This document shows positions 45,236 to 52,771 of a stretch of DNA of 64,000 nucleotides, piece by piece. Where the stretch lies: NCBI GenBank assembly GCA_021799035.1, contig JAJZBG010000004.1, positions 1 through 64,000 of the forward strand, written 5' to 3'. Source of the DNA: Actinomycetes bacterium (GTDB lineage Bacteria; Actinomycetota; Acidimicrobiia; Acidimicrobiales; Acidimicrobiaceae). Position 1 is the first letter of the stretch; every line of letters starts with the position of its first letter. The position numbers were made by a program, and so were the translations under genes. The notes beneath the pieces were generated by a model. It did no database searches, had not been told where the DNA came from, and was given only the letters and a program-made list of their open reading frames with translations.

Positions 45236-46759
45236 CTACGCCGGTTGAATCTGGCCAAAATATTTCTTCACCAAAGGCATTACCTTTTCCCTGGGAAGGA
45301 TGTTGAAACGCAGGGAAACCGCAATGAAGACGGCAGCAGCCACAACCACGTAGAACGCGACGGCGATAATGGGCGGCCCACCTGGAAGGCCCAGCACCAT
45401 TGCCGAGATTGACACGATGACTATTCCCCAGGTGACCCTATTGCTTGGAACCACCGCCAAAATGATGATGCCCCATGCTATATACCACGGCTGTATCACC
45501 GGCGCAAAGAGGGTTACTATCAAAAACGTGTAGCCTATCGCCTTCAGCGAGCCGTAGTAGCTGGAATGCGTCAAGAAATAGAGTCCGCCTATCCCGGAGA
45601 TCGCGAAACCGATCAGTCTGGTAAGCGTAAGGAAGGCGCCCACACCTGCAGCGACCCCTACCAGATGTGAAACGGAGTGAAGCCAGTATGCGAGCGCGGT
45701 TGTTGGATCAGCAGGGGAACGGACCTTTCCCGGCGTGGAAAGAGCGAATATCCAGCCCCATCCCAGCCCGGTAACCTTGGCGACCACCTCCATAACGATG
45801 CCGGAGACGAGAAATGCCGTGACTACTGGACGTATGCGTTCCTTAAAGGGCTTGCCATCACCGAGCCAGCGCCAACCTATGTACAGCACTCCTATCTCAG
45901 CAGGAACTTTAACCATTGCGCCCAGCGTTACCAGGATGACACCCAGTACAGGCCTGGATATCTTGGCATAATATAGACCAGCCAGAAGGAACGCCAGCAT
46001 CAGAACGTCGTTGTGACCGGCTGAGATCAAGTGGTAGATAGTCAGCGGGTTGAGAACAGCAAGTGTGAAAGCAAGGCTCTTGTCGAAGCCGTGCGCTCCT
46101 GCGAGACGGGGTACATAAATCCCAATCCCGACAGCACTCGCTAGAGCCAGAATCCGCAGGCCGACCATTGTCGCAAAGGCGTGATGTAATGTAACGGTGG
46201 TGATCAGTGCAGACAAACCAAGAAAGACAGGGCCGTACGGACTTTTGGCATTTCCCCAGAACGGGTCGACCGTTGTCAGATATGAAGTGCCTCCAAGGAC
46301 ATTCGGCCCGTACTGGTACGGCGAGATATGGTGAGTGACCATCTCTCCGAGTGCAGCATAGCTGTAGATGTCCCGTGAGAACAACGGCCCGGCAATCGCA
46401 AGCGGCAGAACCCACGCAGCACCTAGATACCATAGGGCAGCCACGGGGATACTCGGGTGCGATCTCACCCTTCTCAGCAAATCGAGCCAGACCGCGATTC
46501 CAAGTACAAGCCCAACCACAACTATGACTTTGGCGGGAAACTCAAACCTGGAGGATGGCAGAGCCCCGGGAGCCGCTATTCCCAGCCACCAGGAACCGGC
46601 TACTTTCGAAGTGAACGGCGAGAGCTGCTGAAGGCTTCCCAACGCGACCATAAGCGAAGAGACGAACCCAAGCACCATGTGTTTTCCGAAAGCTCTGAAT
46701 GTGTTTGAGAAAGACCGCTTCGAAGCTAGTGCGGAGTAGCGGTCCAACTCACCGGTCAT
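45236..46759 (-). CDS. MptB-like polyprenol-phosphomannose alpha-mannosyltransferase
   Basis: Multi-pass GT-C glycosyltransferase with about 12 hydrophobic segments across 507 residues. The catalytic extracytoplasmic loop motif SRDIYSYA lies at about residues 128-135, and a YGPVFLGL block follows. In Corynebacterium and Mycobacterium, MptB extends the alpha-1,6-mannan core of lipomannan using decaprenyl-phosphomannose. I infer a mannan or lipoglycan role here, but the acceptor may differ in a lineage without mycolic acids. I place the start at the ATG at 46759, with AGGA before it, rather than the TTG nine codons upstream. A 211-base gap, shared with tRNA-Tyr upstream, likely carries its promoter. 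Confidence 0.8.
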   Translation of the reverse strand: MTGELDRYSALASKRSFSNTFRAFGKHMVLGFVSSLMVALGSLQQLSPFTSKVAGSWWLGIAAPGALPSSRFEFPAKVIVVVGLVLGIAVWLDLLRRVRSHPSIPVAALWYLGAAWVLPLAIAGPLFSRDIYSYAALGEMVTHHISPYQYGPNVLGGTSYLTTVDPFWGNAKSPYGPVFLGLSALITTVTLHHAFATMVGLRILALASAVGIGIYVPRLAGAHGFDKSLAFTLAVLNPLTIYHLISAGHNDVLMLAFLLAGLYYAKISRPVLGVILVTLGAMVKVPAEIGVLYIGWRWLGDGKPFKERIRPVVTAFLVSGIVMEVVAKVTGLGWGWIFALSTPGKVRSPADPTTALAYWLHSVSHLVGVAAGVGAFLTLTRLIGFAISGIGGLYFLTHSSYYGSLKAIGYTFLIVTLFAPVIQPWYIAWGIIILAVVPSNRVTWGIVIVSISAMVLGLPGGPPIIAVAFYVVVAAAVFIAVSLRFNILPREKVMPLVKKYFGQIQPA

Positions 46760-46970
46760 ATTCCTAGAATCCGGTCGTAACAGCAATGGTCCTGGTCCTT
46801 ACGAGACAAAATATTCGACGATCTACACAGCAATGCCAGGCACAAGTGACTCTGGATCTCGTAATAATAAGCTATAGAAACTAAATAAGAAAAACCAGAG
46901 AAATTAGCTCAATTGCTCCTGAGAATTACCTGGGAATCCTGCTGGCAATCAAGCGCTTCAACATTATGCG

Positions 46971-47079: not shown

Positions 47080-47568
47080 ATGCCTACCTTCGATGTTGTT
47101 TCAGAAGTAAATATGCAAGAAGTGAAAAATGCCTTGGATCAGGCAAACCGTGAAGCCGGAACCCGCTTTGACTTCAAGGACACCAACTCGACCATCGAGA
47201 TTTCAGGCCAGGATATGACCCTGAGCTCATCCAGCGCTGACCGTCTGAAGGCCCTAGAGCAAGTTCTCGAAGAGAAGCTTGTCAAGAGACAGGTTTCCCT
47301 TAAGTGCCTTGACCGTGGAGAAGTCACCGAGGGCTCAAAGGGCACTGCGCGTCGAACCATTAGAATCGTTGCTGGCATCTCCTCTGACAAGGCCAAGGAG
47401 ATAAACAAGTACATCAAAGACCTTGGGTTAAAAGGTGTAAGCGGCTCTATACAGGGTGACGCGCTCAGGGTATCCGGGAAGAAGAGGGATGACCTGCAGG
47501 AGGTTATCTCCAAGCTCAAAGAACATGATTTCAACATCCCTTTGCAGTTCAATAACTTCAGAGATTGA
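47080..47568 (+). CDS. YajQ-family nucleotide-binding protein
   Basis: A 162-residue cytoplasmic protein of the YajQ family, made of two ferredoxin-like halves: MPTFDVVSEVNMQEVKNALDQ at the start and KYIKDLGLKGVSGSIQGD near the end. Family members bind nucleotides, and in Xanthomonas cyclic di-GMP, acting as a regulator; whether this holds in actinobacteria is unproven. The length is normal. Its 3' end overlaps the HAD gene by 11 bases, tail to tail. Confidence 0.92.
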   Translation: MPTFDVVSEVNMQEVKNALDQANREAGTRFDFKDTNSTIEISGQDMTLSSSSADRLKALEQVLEEKLVKRQVSLKCLDRGEVTEGSKGTARRTIRIVAGISSDKAKEINKYIKDLGLKGVSGSIQGDALRVSGKKRDDLQEVISKLKEHDFNIPLQFNNFRD

Positions 47569-48085
47569 GGTGGTCGTAGTAGCCTGAGTGGATGTACACG
47601 CAAGGAACACCGTTGGATCTGAACATGTCCACGTTTCTCCGGTCGTCTTCGAAGGCAAGTATGGGATCAATGCCCTGTTGCCTGATCTCTTCCAGGCTTT
47701 GAGCTTTGAAGTCCTTGGCCGCTGAATAGTCGCCGTAGTTGCGCATGATCAGCAGATCCCAACGCATTGGGTAGTCCTTCAACCATCTGATCGTCTGTGA
47801 CTGGACTGATGCTGGACGTCCAGTGAGAAGGACCACGAGCAGCTCTTTGTCCAGCAATTTGAGCAGCGTTGCAACCTCATCGATGTAAGGATCATCGCCG
47901 CACTTGGCAAAGAAGCCATCCCAGTCCTTGTCCTCTCCTCTGCCAATCAGAGGCTGTCTCCAGGCGGCATCTGAAAGAACCCCGTCTAGATCGCAGACGA
48001 CGGCAGGCCCGAATAGTTTAGATGCGTCTCGGCTCTCTTCGGGAGGAAAGATCCAGTGACTTGGAAGGGGAGTAAATGAAGCCAT
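47558..48085 (-). CDS. HAD-superfamily phosphatase-like protein
   Basis: Predicted Mg-dependent hydrolase of 175 residues. Motif I is CDLDGVLSD with nucleophile D32 and acid D34; motif II is T88 in VLLTGRP; motif III/IV is AFEDD at 144-148. The spacing resembles polynucleotide kinase 3'-phosphatase and other small HAD enzymes acting on nucleotides, but the substrate is not clear. It stands alone on the minus strand, convergent with the YajQ gene and divergent from the large membrane protein (84 bases between their starts). Confidence 0.8.
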   Translation of the reverse strand: MASFTPLPSHWIFPPEESRDASKLFGPAVVCDLDGVLSDAAWRQPLIGRGEDKDWDGFFAKCGDDPYIDEVATLLKLLDKELLVVLLTGRPASVQSQTIRWLKDYPMRWDLLIMRNYGDYSAAKDFKAQSLEEIRQQGIDPILAFEDDRRNVDMFRSNGVPCVYIHSGYYDHLNL

Positions 48086-48169: not shown

Positions 48170-51100
48170 ATGAGCAATACCCAAGGCGGCCTTTACGGCT
48201 GCGATGATAACGAAAACTCCGCAACCTGCCCAGCGGTTCGAGAAGTCGAGGTCCACATTGGCGAAAAAGTCGTTGTGGCATCGGACTTTTTCATCCAACC
48301 TGGCGTTCAGATAAAGGCTTCCAATTCGGATAAGCCGTCACTTGAGCGCTTCATCGCAGCTGTGAACGGTTGGGATGGGCCGGGAGTGTTGATAATCGCA
48401 GGCAACTTGCTGGATTTGCCCAACGCCGGAAACAGCGAGCAATGGGACTCGCCTCTTTTCGAAGCTTTGAGCTCACTGTCCAACCGAGCAGCGGTGAGGA
48501 TCTATCTCATTCCGGGCTCGAGGGACTCGAGGCTTGCATCTGATGCCCGACTTGTGAAAAGTCTAGGTGAGCTGTTTTCCTTCGAGCTTGCCCTAGAGAT
48601 AGAGCTCCATGTCCAAAGCCTCCAGGGCTGGGAAAAGATAAGCGTAAGCTCTGGAGAAGGATTCGCGCCCTCGACGCTTGCAAGCCCGTTTTCCACCGTG
48701 GCAGCTTCATATCAAGGTGCTGCTCCCCAGTCCTCAAGGCGACACAAGAAGAGGGCGGGATTGCTGGCAGGCGTGGACCGATTAAGGGAGCCGTCTTCCG
48801 CTATCCGGTTCCTTATTTCGAGAATGACCTACAGAAGAGTGGCTCGCATTACCCCATGGGTGGTGCTCGCCATAGTAGTGTCGTTTCTCATAAAGCTGCC
48901 GCTGGCGATATCGCTGCCGGTTGTAAGAAACTTCAGGCATCATGCCATCAATGTCGGCTCCCGAGTCCTCTTTATAGGAATAACCACTCTCATAGACGCG
49001 ACGCTGATACTCCTGGCAATCCTCATCATCCTCAGGATCTCGTATTCGAGGCTTTTCTCTGAAGATCAAATAGCGCCCAGAACCTTCGACAACAACGTCG
49101 ATGCCAGGATCGGAGCAGCAAAGAAGATCGACGAAGGCTTCTCAGGCGTAATAGTGGGCCACTTTTTGACGCCTGAGCTCTCCCAGGTTGGCTCGGGCTT
49201 CTTTGCCTGCACGGGATCGGTATCTAGGATCTATGTTGAAGCTGAGGCAGCCTTGGGACTGCCCCCGATTTTCAGACCGAAACAGCAGGCAACCTGGCTC
49301 GAGATAGAGGCGGGTGCCAAGACGCACGTCAGGCTTCTGAGTAGGACCGCCTTCGCCAAAGCTGACTCGTTTCTCGAACAGGTGCTGACGATCAAGCTCC
49401 GAGACAAAGAAGCTGGAATGGGACAGCTGGCTTCCTTCCCGGGCGGTAATGACTATCGCGAAAACCAGCTTCCAATGATGAGGCAAGTGCGTTCCAGAAG
49501 GATAGCAGCTGCAGCAATCTTCGTTGTGGGTGCCCTCAACCTTGCATCAGCCCTTACTCCGCCAATACGAGCTCGCCTGCACTTCATCCGCGAATTCCTG
49601 CCCGTGACAGTCTCTACCACGGCAGACGCCCTTGTGGCGATGGCGTCGATAGGCCTGATGTTCCTTGCCGGCGGAATACGCAGGGGCCAACGCCAAGCAT
49701 GGGCATTTGCTCTTGCCATTTCGGTTGGCGCGGCAAGCCTCAACTTGATCAAGGGAGGCGACTTCGAAGAGGCGCTCACCTTGATCATCCTCGTTCTCTA
49801 TCTTGTGAGCAAAAGGGACAGCTTCAGGGCCCCCTCAGACCGCCCCTCGCTCAATAGAGGGATTCGCGCCCTGATCTTTGGTTCTGCGGCGATCATCTTC
49901 TTCAGCACTGCCATCATCTTCAGCTATATCAAACTTTTTCGCCATGACTATCATCTCTCCTTTTTTACGGTGCTAACCGCAGTCGGCGAGCGCATGGCGG
50001 GATTCTCGACGCACCCCCTGCCAGGCGCCACCATAAACGAATTCGCCACTCCGGCTCTCGCATTTTCCGGAATCTGTCTCGCTGCAATCGCGCTCTTTCT
50101 GGCGTTTCGCCCTGTTGTCGACCGCTCCAGGAGCTTCGCCACACGACTGGGCAGCCATTCAGACCGCGAGCGCGCACGAGCCATAGTGCACAGCTTCTCG
50201 AGTGGCACCCTTGACTACTTCGCTCTCAGGGACGACAAGCGCTACTTCTTTGCCCACGGCTGCGTCATCGCTTACGCCAACTACGGGTCTGTCGCACTCG
50301 TATCACCGGATCCCATCGGCCCGGCAACCACCAAGGACCAGGCCTGGAAGGAGTTTCTCAGCTTCGCCAATGGGAAAGGATGGATCGTCGGGGTTCTAGG
50401 CGCAGACGAAAGCTGGCTGGATACCTACCATGACACGGGCATGCACTCCATCTATGTGGGTGATGAGGCGATAGTCGCTCTAAAGAGCTTCAACCTGGCT
50501 GGCAAAAAGAACAAAGGTCTTCGCCAGGCGGTTGGCCGGATCCGCAAATATGGCTACACGGCAGAGTTTTACGATCCGTCAAGTGTCGATTCCCAAATCC
50601 GGAGCGGAGTGATGTCCGTGATGACCCAAAGCCGCAAGGGAGAAGCGGAGAGGGGATTTTCAATGACCCTCGGCCGGGTCTTCGATGCGTCAGACAAGAA
50701 CCTTCTGCTCACGGTTTGCAAAGATAGCACTGGCAGGGTCGTCGGCTTCTGCCAGTGGGTCCCATCACCGGAGATCAACGGCTACTCGCTCGACCTAATG
50801 AGGAGAGATCTGGGAAACCATCCCAACGGTCTCACTGACTTCATGATCGTCTCTACGATCGAACATCTTCTTGAACATCGCTACGAACATCTGAGCCTCA
50901 ACTTCGCCACGATGAGAGCCGTTCTTTCAGGCGACATGGACTCGATGACACAGCGGATGGAAAAGTGGTTCCTCAAGCGGATGAGCGATTCCATGCAGAT
51001 CGAAAGCCTCTGGCGATTCAATGCCAAGTTCGATCCAATCTGGCATCCGCGCTACGTCATTTACGATAACGCAGAGCACGCGCCTGCCATTGCTCTGGCA

Positions 51101-51181
51101 ATAGCGCGGGCAGAAGCGCTCTGGGAATTGCCGATAATTGGAAGGTTTCTCAACCCTGGTGACGCCGACGTTAAGTCCTGA
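48170..51181 (+). CDS. Fusion: degenerate phosphoesterase, membrane helices, MprF-like synthase
   Basis: A 1003-residue multidomain membrane protein. Residues 30-210 and about 320-410 resemble a metallophosphoesterase, but the metal motifs are changed: VASDF (D39, no histidine), AGNLLD in place of GD, PGSRD in place of GNHD, and VGHFL (H331 only) in place of GHTH. Two membrane helices (about 228-250 and 262-290) are inserted between those halves. Further helices lie at about 444-462, 480-502, 508-525, 535-548, 565-590 and 625-648. Residues 665-985 are a DUF2156/LPG-synthase C domain, as in MprF and the N part of LysX, which transfer an amino acid from tRNA to phosphatidylglycerol. Inference: aminoacyl-phospholipid synthase with a regulatory or dead phosphoesterase module. 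It ends 15 bases from nuoN, convergent. Confidence 0.8.
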   Translation: MSNTQGGLYGCDDNENSATCPAVREVEVHIGEKVVVASDFFIQPGVQIKASNSDKPSLERFIAAVNGWDGPGVLIIAGNLLDLPNAGNSEQWDSPLFEALSSLSNRAAVRIYLIPGSRDSRLASDARLVKSLGELFSFELALEIELHVQSLQGWEKISVSSGEGFAPSTLASPFSTVAASYQGAAPQSSRRHKKRAGLLAGVDRLREPSSAIRFLISRMTYRRVARITPWVVLAIVVSFLIKLPLAISLPVVRNFRHHAINVGSRVLFIGITTLIDATLILLAILIILRISYSRLFSEDQIAPRTFDNNVDARIGAAKKIDEGFSGVIVGHFLTPELSQVGSGFFACTGSVSRIYVEAEAALGLPPIFRPKQQATWLEIEAGAKTHVRLLSRTAFAKADSFLEQVLTIKLRDKEAGMGQLASFPGGNDYRENQLPMMRQVRSRRIAAAAIFVVGALNLASALTPPIRARLHFIREFLPVTVSTTADALVAMASIGLMFLAGGIRRGQRQAWAFALAISVGAASLNLIKGGDFEEALTLIILVLYLVSKRDSFRAPSDRPSLNRGIRALIFGSAAIIFFSTAIIFSYIKLFRHDYHLSFFTVLTAVGERMAGFSTHPLPGATINEFATPALAFSGICLAAIALFLAFRPVVDRSRSFATRLGSHSDRERARAIVHSFSSGTLDYFALRDDKRYFFAHGCVIAYANYGSVALVSPDPIGPATTKDQAWKEFLSFANGKGWIVGVLGADESWLDTYHDTGMHSIYVGDEAIVALKSFNLAGKKNKGLRQAVGRIRKYGYTAEFYDPSSVDSQIRSGVMSVMTQSRKGEAERGFSMTLGRVFDASDKNLLLTVCKDSTGRVVGFCQWVPSPEINGYSLDLMRRDLGNHPNGLTDFMIVSTIEHLLEHRYEHLSLNFATMRAVLSGDMDSMTQRMEKWFLKRMSDSMQIESLWRFNAKFDPIWHPRYVIYDNAEHAPAIALAIARAEALWELPIIGRFLNPGDADVKS

Positions 51182-51196: not shown

Positions 51197-52771
51197 CTAG
51201 AACAGCAATACCGCTCGGTTGGCCACGCTGACAAGTGGCCCGGCCCAGATGCCAAGACCGACCGTTATTACCACTGCAACGGCAATCACGACTGCAGCCG
51301 CATCCACCTTCGTCTTGACCTTCACGTCCTCTTTCACCAGGACAGCCGTGCCACCGCCGTATTCCCCTTCCTCCAGGCCGGCCTGAGCCTCATCCTCAGA
51401 CCCTGCGGCCCTGAATGGAAGCAACGCCATTCGAAGATAGAAGAACACCGCTATGGCTGCCGAGATCATTGCCACAAGCGCGACTGGGTAGTGTCGCGAA
51501 CTGACCGCGGCGAGTACCACGTTGAACTTGGCGAGGAAGCCCGTTGTGAAGGGAGCGCCAGCCTGGGCAAGGATAAGCGCAACAAAGGAAAAGGTCAGGA
51601 ATGGCGACTTCTTGGCGAGGCCGCGAAGATCGTCAAGCTGGAGTCCCCTCTTGCCTAAAAGCCTCTCCATTGCTCCGATAGTGGCAAATGCGCCAACGAT
51701 AACGACCGAGTATGTGATCAAGAAGTAAAGCGAAGCTCCAATGCCCCTGTTGCTCGCAGCGTAAAGCCCAAGAAGGATGAAGCCCGCCTGGTTAATGGAA
51801 GAATAGGCCAGCGTCCGTTTGATGTCCCGCTGGACGACTGCCAGTATCGCACCAACAAGCATTGTAAGCACCGCGAGAGTCCCTACAACTGGGACCCAGT
51901 CGCTCTGGTTGGTGATGAGCCCGGAAAAAAAGACCCTCAGCAGTGCAGCAAAGCCCGCCGCCTTGGCCGTGGCCGCCATATAACCAGTGACAGGACTTGG
52001 CGCGCCTTGATAAACGTCAGGCGCCCAGAAGTGAAACGGCACCGCAGAGATTTTGAAACCAAGGCCAACGAGCAGCATCCCCATGCCAGCCAGCAAGACG
52101 CCGTTGGATTTGATCAAGTTGTTGGCGAGGAATGTGAAGATCTGCCCGATATTCGTGGTTCCAGTTGCTCCGTATATCAATGCAACGCCATACAGGAATA
52201 CTGCAGACGAAAATCCTCCAAGCATGAAGTACTTGATCGACGACTCCCGTCCCCTGTCGCTTCCAGATTCGATGGCGACAAGAACATAAAGGGAGATTGA
52301 AAGGATCTCCAGACCCAAGAACAGCACGATCAAATCCAGGGCAGAAGCCATCAGCATGGCGCCGGAAGTCGATAGCAGCACAAGAACCACAAACTCTGGA
52401 ATTCTTCCCTTGTTCAGATCCATCAGATCTTGGCCCAGGAGAATGGTCAGAAGCGCAACTATGGAGAACAGCACGAAGAAAAAGATTGCGAACTTGTCCA
52501 GCGCCACTGCACCAGCAAGCACCGCCTTGTTGGCGTTCTGGCCTCCTGATCTGAACGCCAAGTAGATTGAATCCACGAGGCTGACAATCGCCACGACAGA
52601 GCCGAGCGCTACCGACGTCGCCTTTGAAAGGTGCTTTGTGACCAGCGAGCTGACCAGCAGGACGACCACGGCTCCAACGATCATGATCAGCTCCGGCGCA
52701 ATCGCCGAATACTCGATCGGCGGCAGCTTGATTGGTGTTGAAGATGCTACCTGAGCAATGAGAAACGACAT
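51197..52771 (-). CDS. nuoN: NADH-quinone oxidoreductase subunit N
   Basis: Antiporter-like proton-pumping subunit of complex I, multi-pass membrane protein with about 14 helices. The shared antiporter core is visible (LVGLGFKISAVPFHFWAPDVYQGAPSPVTGYMA), including the lysine and the proline-bracketed helix. The open frame can extend to 52852, deep into nuoM, but ATG at 52771 is five bases past the nuoM stop and opens with a normal N terminus (about 524 residues), so I use it. Last gene of the operon. Confidence 0.96.
   Translation of the reverse strand: MSFLIAQVASSTPIKLPPIEYSAIAPELIMIVGAVVVLLVSSLVTKHLSKATSVALGSVVAIVSLVDSIYLAFRSGGQNANKAVLAGAVALDKFAIFFFVLFSIVALLTILLGQDLMDLNKGRIPEFVVLVLLSTSGAMLMASALDLIVLFLGLEILSISLYVLVAIESGSDRGRESSIKYFMLGGFSSAVFLYGVALIYGATGTTNIGQIFTFLANNLIKSNGVLLAGMGMLLVGLGFKISAVPFHFWAPDVYQGAPSPVTGYMAATAKAAGFAALLRVFFSGLITNQSDWVPVVGTLAVLTMLVGAILAVVQRDIKRTLAYSSINQAGFILLGLYAASNRGIGASLYFLITYSVVIVGAFATIGAMERLLGKRGLQLDDLRGLAKKSPFLTFSFVALILAQAGAPFTTGFLAKFNVVLAAVSSRHYPVALVAMISAAIAVFFYLRMALLPFRAAGSEDEAQAGLEEGEYGGGTAVLVKEDVKVKTKVDAAAVVIAVAVVITVGLGIWAGPLVSVANRAVLLF

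Follow-up and report, generated by a model that had tools for sequence, protein, structure and literature searches.

What can a phosphoesterase-like domain be doing at the front of a lipid aminoacylation enzyme if it has lost most of its metal site? The question is raised by one gene in the window, by which we mean the whole stretch of DNA analysed here, 64,000 nucleotides from an Actinomycetes bacterium of the family Acidimicrobiaceae (contig JAJZBG010000004.1, positions 1 to 64,000). A preliminary description, made from the sequence alone, had read the gene as a three-part fusion of an inactive-looking phosphoesterase, a membrane domain and an MprF-like synthase. Our answer proceeds from the architecture of the protein and its synthase half, through the state of the metal site and the history of the fusion, to the roles that the N-terminal domain may have kept.

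Architecture of the protein and its synthase half

Our analysis confirms that the window protein is a single chain made of a domain derived from metallophosphoesterases (MPEs), a set of membrane helices and an LPG_synthase_C domain of the LysX/MprF type (Table 1). The frame begins at an ATG, closely preceded by a stop in the same frame, and runs for 1003 codons, in which the three parts follow one another as first described. The MPE-like part was correctly identified but is larger than the N-terminal third allotted to it: it reaches to about residue 436 and makes up nearer 43% of the protein. Upstream of the gene lies a HAD phosphatase-like gene of the PNKP type (47558-48085, minus strand), with a gene for a DUF520 protein beside it (47080-47568, plus strand), and downstream convergent NADH dehydrogenase-like genes begin at 51197, their names being taken from a reading of the translations. 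The window also encodes, at 45236-46786 on the minus strand, a protein of 516 residues that is apparently a membrane protein and has no Pfam match.

Table 1. Features of the fusion gene and its product, in window coordinates (MPE, metallophosphoesterase; full-ligand, having all seven metal ligands)
Feature	Residues	Position	Strand	Basis
Whole gene	1003 in all	48170..51181	+	Open frame; full-length relative L032 77% identical
First half of MPE-like domain, LpxH-like fold	26-165	48245..48664	+	LpxH fold matches; profile match to full-ligand stand-alone MPEs
Motif I, D39-F40-F41, H lost (DxH in full-ligand relatives)	39-41	48284..48292	+	Alignment
Motif II, IAGNLLDL, D79 to N (GDxxD in full-ligand relatives)	76-83	48395..48418	+	Alignment
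Motif III, G116-S-R-D119, N to S (GNHD in full-ligand relatives)	116-119	48515..48526	+	Alignment
Motif IV region, H161 to S (V-E-H-G in full-ligand relatives)	159-163	48644..48658	+	Alignment
Two-helix membrane hairpin within MPE-like domain	229-296	48854..49057	+	Hydropathy; present in all aligned relatives shown
Second half of MPE-like domain	297-436	49058..49477	+	Alignment, profile comparison
Motif V, G330-H-F-L333, last H lost (GHTH/GHSH in full-ligand relatives)	330-333	49157..49168	+	Alignment
About six membrane helices	437-655	49478..50134	+	Hydropathy, NCBIfam/Pfam, MprF structures
LPG_synthase_C domain, predicted aminoacyl-tRNA:lipid transferase	678-965	50201..51064	+	PF09924 and invariant positions

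We assign the last ~560 residues to about six helices and a synthase domain because Pfam, NCBIfam and alignments to MprF structures all indicate it. The match to PF09924 (E 2.2e-64; 217.8 bits against a cut-off of 27.5) covers model positions 10-298 of 298, in agreement with the earlier assignment of a C-terminal DUF2156/LPG-synthase C domain, and the window protein keeps 40/40 of the positions that are near-invariant in fused and non-fused synthases. The “membrane domain” of the preliminary description is likewise present and can be refined to helices whose homologues form the half of the MprF membrane region adjoining the synthase; four of the roughly six are clear hydropathy peaks, the other two are taken from helices in a low-confidence model, and the Pfam LysX membrane region matches residues 444-585 just below its cut-off.

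The best NCBIfam match is to LysX of Actinobacteria (276.5 bits over residues 437-989), in which six membrane helices likewise lead into LPG_synthase_C. However, LysX continues into a C-terminal lysyl-tRNA synthetase, whereas the window protein ends at the synthase and has the phosphoesterase-like domain in front. The match to the LysX model stops at position 573 of 1102, and the score is far below the equivalog cut-off of 742. In MprF it is the synthase-proximal helices and the catalytic domain that align (residues 445-979, the solved structures from about 445), and the NCBIfam model of MprF pairs residues 443-980 with its second half, from model position 323, at 251.6 bits against a cut-off of 600. 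The flippase helices of MprF (subdomain 1), by contrast, are missing: the Pfam flippase family LPG_synthase_TM was not found in the window protein, which has the phosphoesterase-like domain there instead.

In S. aureus MprF the first eight helices are not needed for synthesis (PMC2774229), and the catalytic domain together with six helices gives full synthesis (PMC8974105), a number that the window protein roughly matches. Since its synthase sequence is complete, and since this much of MprF is enough, the synthase half should be active, transferring an amino acid from an aminoacyl-tRNA to a lipid of the membrane. This lipid may be other than phosphatidylglycerol, since lysyl-diacylglycerol is the product of LysX in several Actinobacteria (PMC10580965). 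The window gene is the only LPG_synthase_C gene in its genome, which also holds four separate LPG_synthase_TM genes; flipping in trans is therefore possible, and flipping of the product, if any, would be carried out by a separate protein.

A phosphoesterase-derived domain and the decay of its metal site

The first 436 residues of the window protein have no Pfam match, and the descent of this region emerges from comparisons of profiles. An alignment of the window protein with close relatives (five sequences) matches one of 12 stand-alone MPEs at 99.7% probability, with an E value of 3.2e-27 over 397 columns. The Pfam family Metallophos scores above its cut-off in the stand-alone relatives L039, L047 and L050, and in the fused relative L037 it does so in one chain with LPG_synthase_C. 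We also built AlphaFold models of the N domain alone (five sequences) and of the full-length protein (four sequences). These were poor, with mean pLDDT of 42 and 35, and reached moderate confidence only at about residues 20-160, where much of the range has pLDDT 60-80 in both. The top Foldseek matches are LpxH structures (E 2.5e-4), and so are the top VIA-align matches, at Z 7-8 over 108-125 residues of the N-terminal half, the fold matches to this low-confidence model spanning residues 33-170; polymerase B-subunits appear further down the list. A Z under 8 may reflect a common arrangement; here the match to LpxH is in line with the evidence from sequence. The profile of the stand-alone relatives reaches LpxH itself at E 0.015. 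By fold and by descent, then, profiles and models place the N domain in the MPE superfamily. The N-terminal half of the domain has its best fold match in LpxH (UDP-2,3-diacylglucosamine hydrolase), from which the window protein differs in having a membrane hairpin inside the domain, in the loss of five of seven ligands and in the fused synthase. As had been noted from the sequence, two hydrophobic segments, at about 231-249 and 269-287 by hydropathy, split the domain between the fourth and fifth MPE motifs. This hairpin occurs also in stand-alone relatives and therefore predates the fusion.

We scored the seven ligand positions on one alignment of stand-alone and fused relatives. The motifs named in the preliminary description lie at residues 38-40 (SDF), 78-79 (GN), 116-119 (GSRD) and 330-333 (GHFL), and its statement that most metal ligands are gone holds when the protein is set against relatives in which the site is preserved: D39 and H331 are retained, and an H has been replaced at F41, S161 and L333, a D at N79 and an N at S117. 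The window protein thus has 2/7 of the di-metal ligands that mark an active MPE. All of the stand-alone relatives (16/16) have 7/7. Among fused relatives the full set is found in five, namely L057 and L058 (family f66), L068 (f99), and L069 and L070 (f128); intermediate states occur in L059 (5/7), L072 (4/7) and L071 (3/7); and about 40, the window protein included, keep 0-2. Since both stand-alone and fused relatives carry complete sites, the origin of the pseudoenzyme is shown. Moreover, the intermediates have lost different ligands (L072 lacks the first H and keeps the second D, and L071 the opposite), which argues for a stepwise decay. The preliminary description had held that relatives with intact metal sites and separate genes would refute its interpretation; such relatives exist, and yet the pseudoenzyme reading stands.

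Could the window domain still be a hydrolase, using an altered or a single-metal site? D39, D119 and H331 remain and could be taken in this sense. However, the second D (79), the N (117) and all three H (41, 161, 333) are substituted, and by residues that differ even among close relatives, position 117 being S, Y or F, and we regard residual hydrolysis as very improbable. Because the lost ligands have been replaced differently from lineage to lineage, no substitute site is apparent in the degenerate members. The residues that these members keep best include G78, D119, S217, R218, Y221, G349 and L389; S217-R218 and Y221 sit just before the first hairpin helix, and the conserved positions are mainly those of the fold and of the membrane flank.

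Distribution and history of the fusion

The N domain is present in 39 of 60 near relatives. Within the phylum a single-sequence search recovered it from 15 of 296 genomes, and a profile search from 83 of 396 genomes, many of these being short matches to generic MPEs. In the class sample LPG_synthase_C occurs in 71 of 292 genomes, and in 37 of the 71 the N domain is matched as well; this overlap comes from a manual comparison of two lists, the genomes sampled for them being the same but for a few. A phosphoesterase fold without its metal site, fused to the synthase in many relatives, is what the preliminary description had led one to look for, and it is what the domain and structure comparisons return. 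A search of plasmids gave, among the rows listed, the synthase half only, with no record covering 80% of the query. The remark that no protein of this arrangement had been described agrees with the open-access literature searched, in which we found none; the architecture would be an addition to the known MprF/LysX enzymes, and its absence from that literature is not proof of novelty.

Other arrangements of the synthase were seen in passing. L116 (839-4342, minus strand) reverses the LysX order: ahead of its LPG_synthase_C domain (822-1113) it carries, at the N-terminal end, a class II tRNA synthetase of the lysyl type (OB fold 121-198, tRNA-synt_2 215-552). Its sister on the tree, L117 (1888-5409, plus strand), is of nearly equal length. 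The LPG_synthase_C proteins L120 (996-3398, minus strand) and L121 (1443-4160, minus strand) have a weak Rhomboid_2-like match before the synthase.

When a tree is built from the membrane and synthase parts, all N-domain proteins fall into one group of 48 rows with 100% SH-aLRT, which also includes L114, a protein without the N domain. The tree of the N domain brings the fused proteins together, except that the stand-alone proteins L052 and L061 fall among them; a topology in which the fused ones form a single clade is not rejected (p-AU 0.33). L061 (7731-9761, minus strand) is a stand-alone MPE with 7/7 ligands in a genome, G037, that has no LPG_synthase_C match, and its position among fused proteins could reflect loss of the synthase half. 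Several independent losses of the metal site were suggested by the first trees, but a tree without long branches set all the degenerate fused members to one side, with a weak support of 31. One clade of these members is likewise not rejected in a test on the N domain (p-AU 0.25). Trees and motif states together make it most likely that an active phosphoesterase was fused a single time, and that its metal site later decayed in most descendants, the window genus among them. In the simplest history a few lineages would later have lost one half of the fusion. The trees and tests settle neither the number of metal-site losses nor a single fusion.

Has the degenerate domain been kept by selection? 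In degenerate pairs with dS below 1 the N-domain dN/dS is 0.12 (L075/L076), 0.12 (L076/L077), 0.17 (L105/L106) and 0.30 (L067/L083), and in the very diverged pair L103/L104 it is 0.53; within the window genus it is 0.08-0.17, rough values since synonymous sites are almost saturated there (dS at least 1.8). These values, mostly 0.1-0.3, point to purifying selection on the degenerate N domains. Between the window protein and L032, dN is 0.225 in the N domain as against 0.109 in the synthase, and the degenerate pairs also show the N domain as the faster part. Of the pairs with 7/7 ligands L069/L070 does so too, whereas L057/L058 and L057/L068 do not. In L062, L096 and L107 much of the N domain is deleted or unrecognisable. 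L062 (6149-8698, plus strand) is a fused protein that has kept the synthase and lost most of the MPE core, window residues ~79-320 being without a recognisable counterpart. The faster change of the N domain and these deletions suggest that the role it retains may be slight.

One could go further and regard the N domain as without any role in the window lineage, persisting only as an in-frame lead to the synthase. The loss of ligands, the rate of change, the large deletions or unrecognisable stretches and the existence of L114 within the clade would all be in keeping with such a relic, which we nevertheless consider unlikely, given that dN/dS of the degenerate domains is well under 1, that the frame stays open over many genera and that the residues beside the first hairpin helix are conserved.

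Possible roles of the N-terminal domain

How might a domain that no longer cleaves anything still serve the synthase? Loss of catalysis with the MPE fold structurally kept is familiar from the B-subunits of eukaryotic replicative DNA polymerases, a role in which catalytically dead MPE domains serve, and from Vps29. The parallel goes only so far, as those proteins belong to an unrelated pathway, whereas the window domain is membrane-bound and lies in one chain with its catalytic partner. The reading to which we incline, with some reserve, is that the protein belongs with LysX and MprF among the lipid aminoacyl transferases and that its dead LpxH-like domain is kept as a membrane scaffold in the place of the MprF flippase. 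The domain descends from an MPE with seven metal ligands, a set that some fused relatives of the same order retain in full in the alignment, and would now act as a cytoplasmic, membrane-bound scaffold, either holding the synthase at the membrane or feeding it lipid.

A cytoplasmic scaffold presupposes a particular orientation. With the topology reversed, both soluble domains would face outward, the orientation measured in M. tuberculosis for the MprF-like part of LysX2 (PMC8974105). However, LysX, the closer model, is cytoplasmic (PMC8974105), and both the likely helix count of 2 + ~6 and the lysine/arginine-rich stretches that precede helices fit cytoplasmic domains; we judge the outward orientation quite improbable.

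The preliminary description had itself proposed a sensor, in which the pocket of the lost active site would take up a lipid or a nucleotide, leave it uncleaved and turn the synthase on or off. Purifying selection on an N domain that shares its chain with the synthase would suit this proposal, as would the retention of D39 and H331 across most of the window genus. A sensor pocket sits less well with the lack of a conserved substitute site, the replacements varying by lineage, with an N domain that evolves faster than the synthase, and with relatives in which much of the domain core is gone, and we find it rather doubtful.

The scaffold may also have had a catalytic past. In the ancestral fusion, and in the members still intact, the LpxH-like domain might make an acceptor lipid that the synthase then aminoacylates, the window lineage having lost the first of these two steps and the domain having become a lipid-presenting scaffold; we offer this two-step history tentatively. 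Hypothetically, the first step would remove a phosphate or a head group from a membrane lipid, for example giving diacylglycerol, which is the substrate aminoacylated by LysX of several Actinobacteria (PMC10580965). The stand-alone 7/7 MPE L088 (4938-7473, plus strand) lies 76 bases upstream of a same-strand MGDG_synth/family 28 glycosyltransferase gene, and this neighbour, being like a diacylglycerol glycosyltransferase, weakly favours an acceptor-making role. Taken together, the neighbours of stand-alone MPEs (ArsA, DksA-like, PGA_cap, an oxidoreductase, a glycolipid synthase) indicate no common pathway. We also considered a phosphoesterase that replaces phosphatidylglycerophosphate phosphatase and set it aside: PgpA (PF04608) is absent in 16/16 genomes with or without a full-ligand MPE, and the test is uninformative because this absence is independent of whether such an MPE is present.

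Through enzymes of the MprF/LysX kind the charge of membranes is altered, and so is resistance to antimicrobial peptides and acid. These enzymes would gain an architecture in which a phosphoesterase-derived domain replaces the flippase. Moreover, one fused family spans the range from a full to a lost metal site and so provides a good natural series from enzyme to pseudoenzyme.
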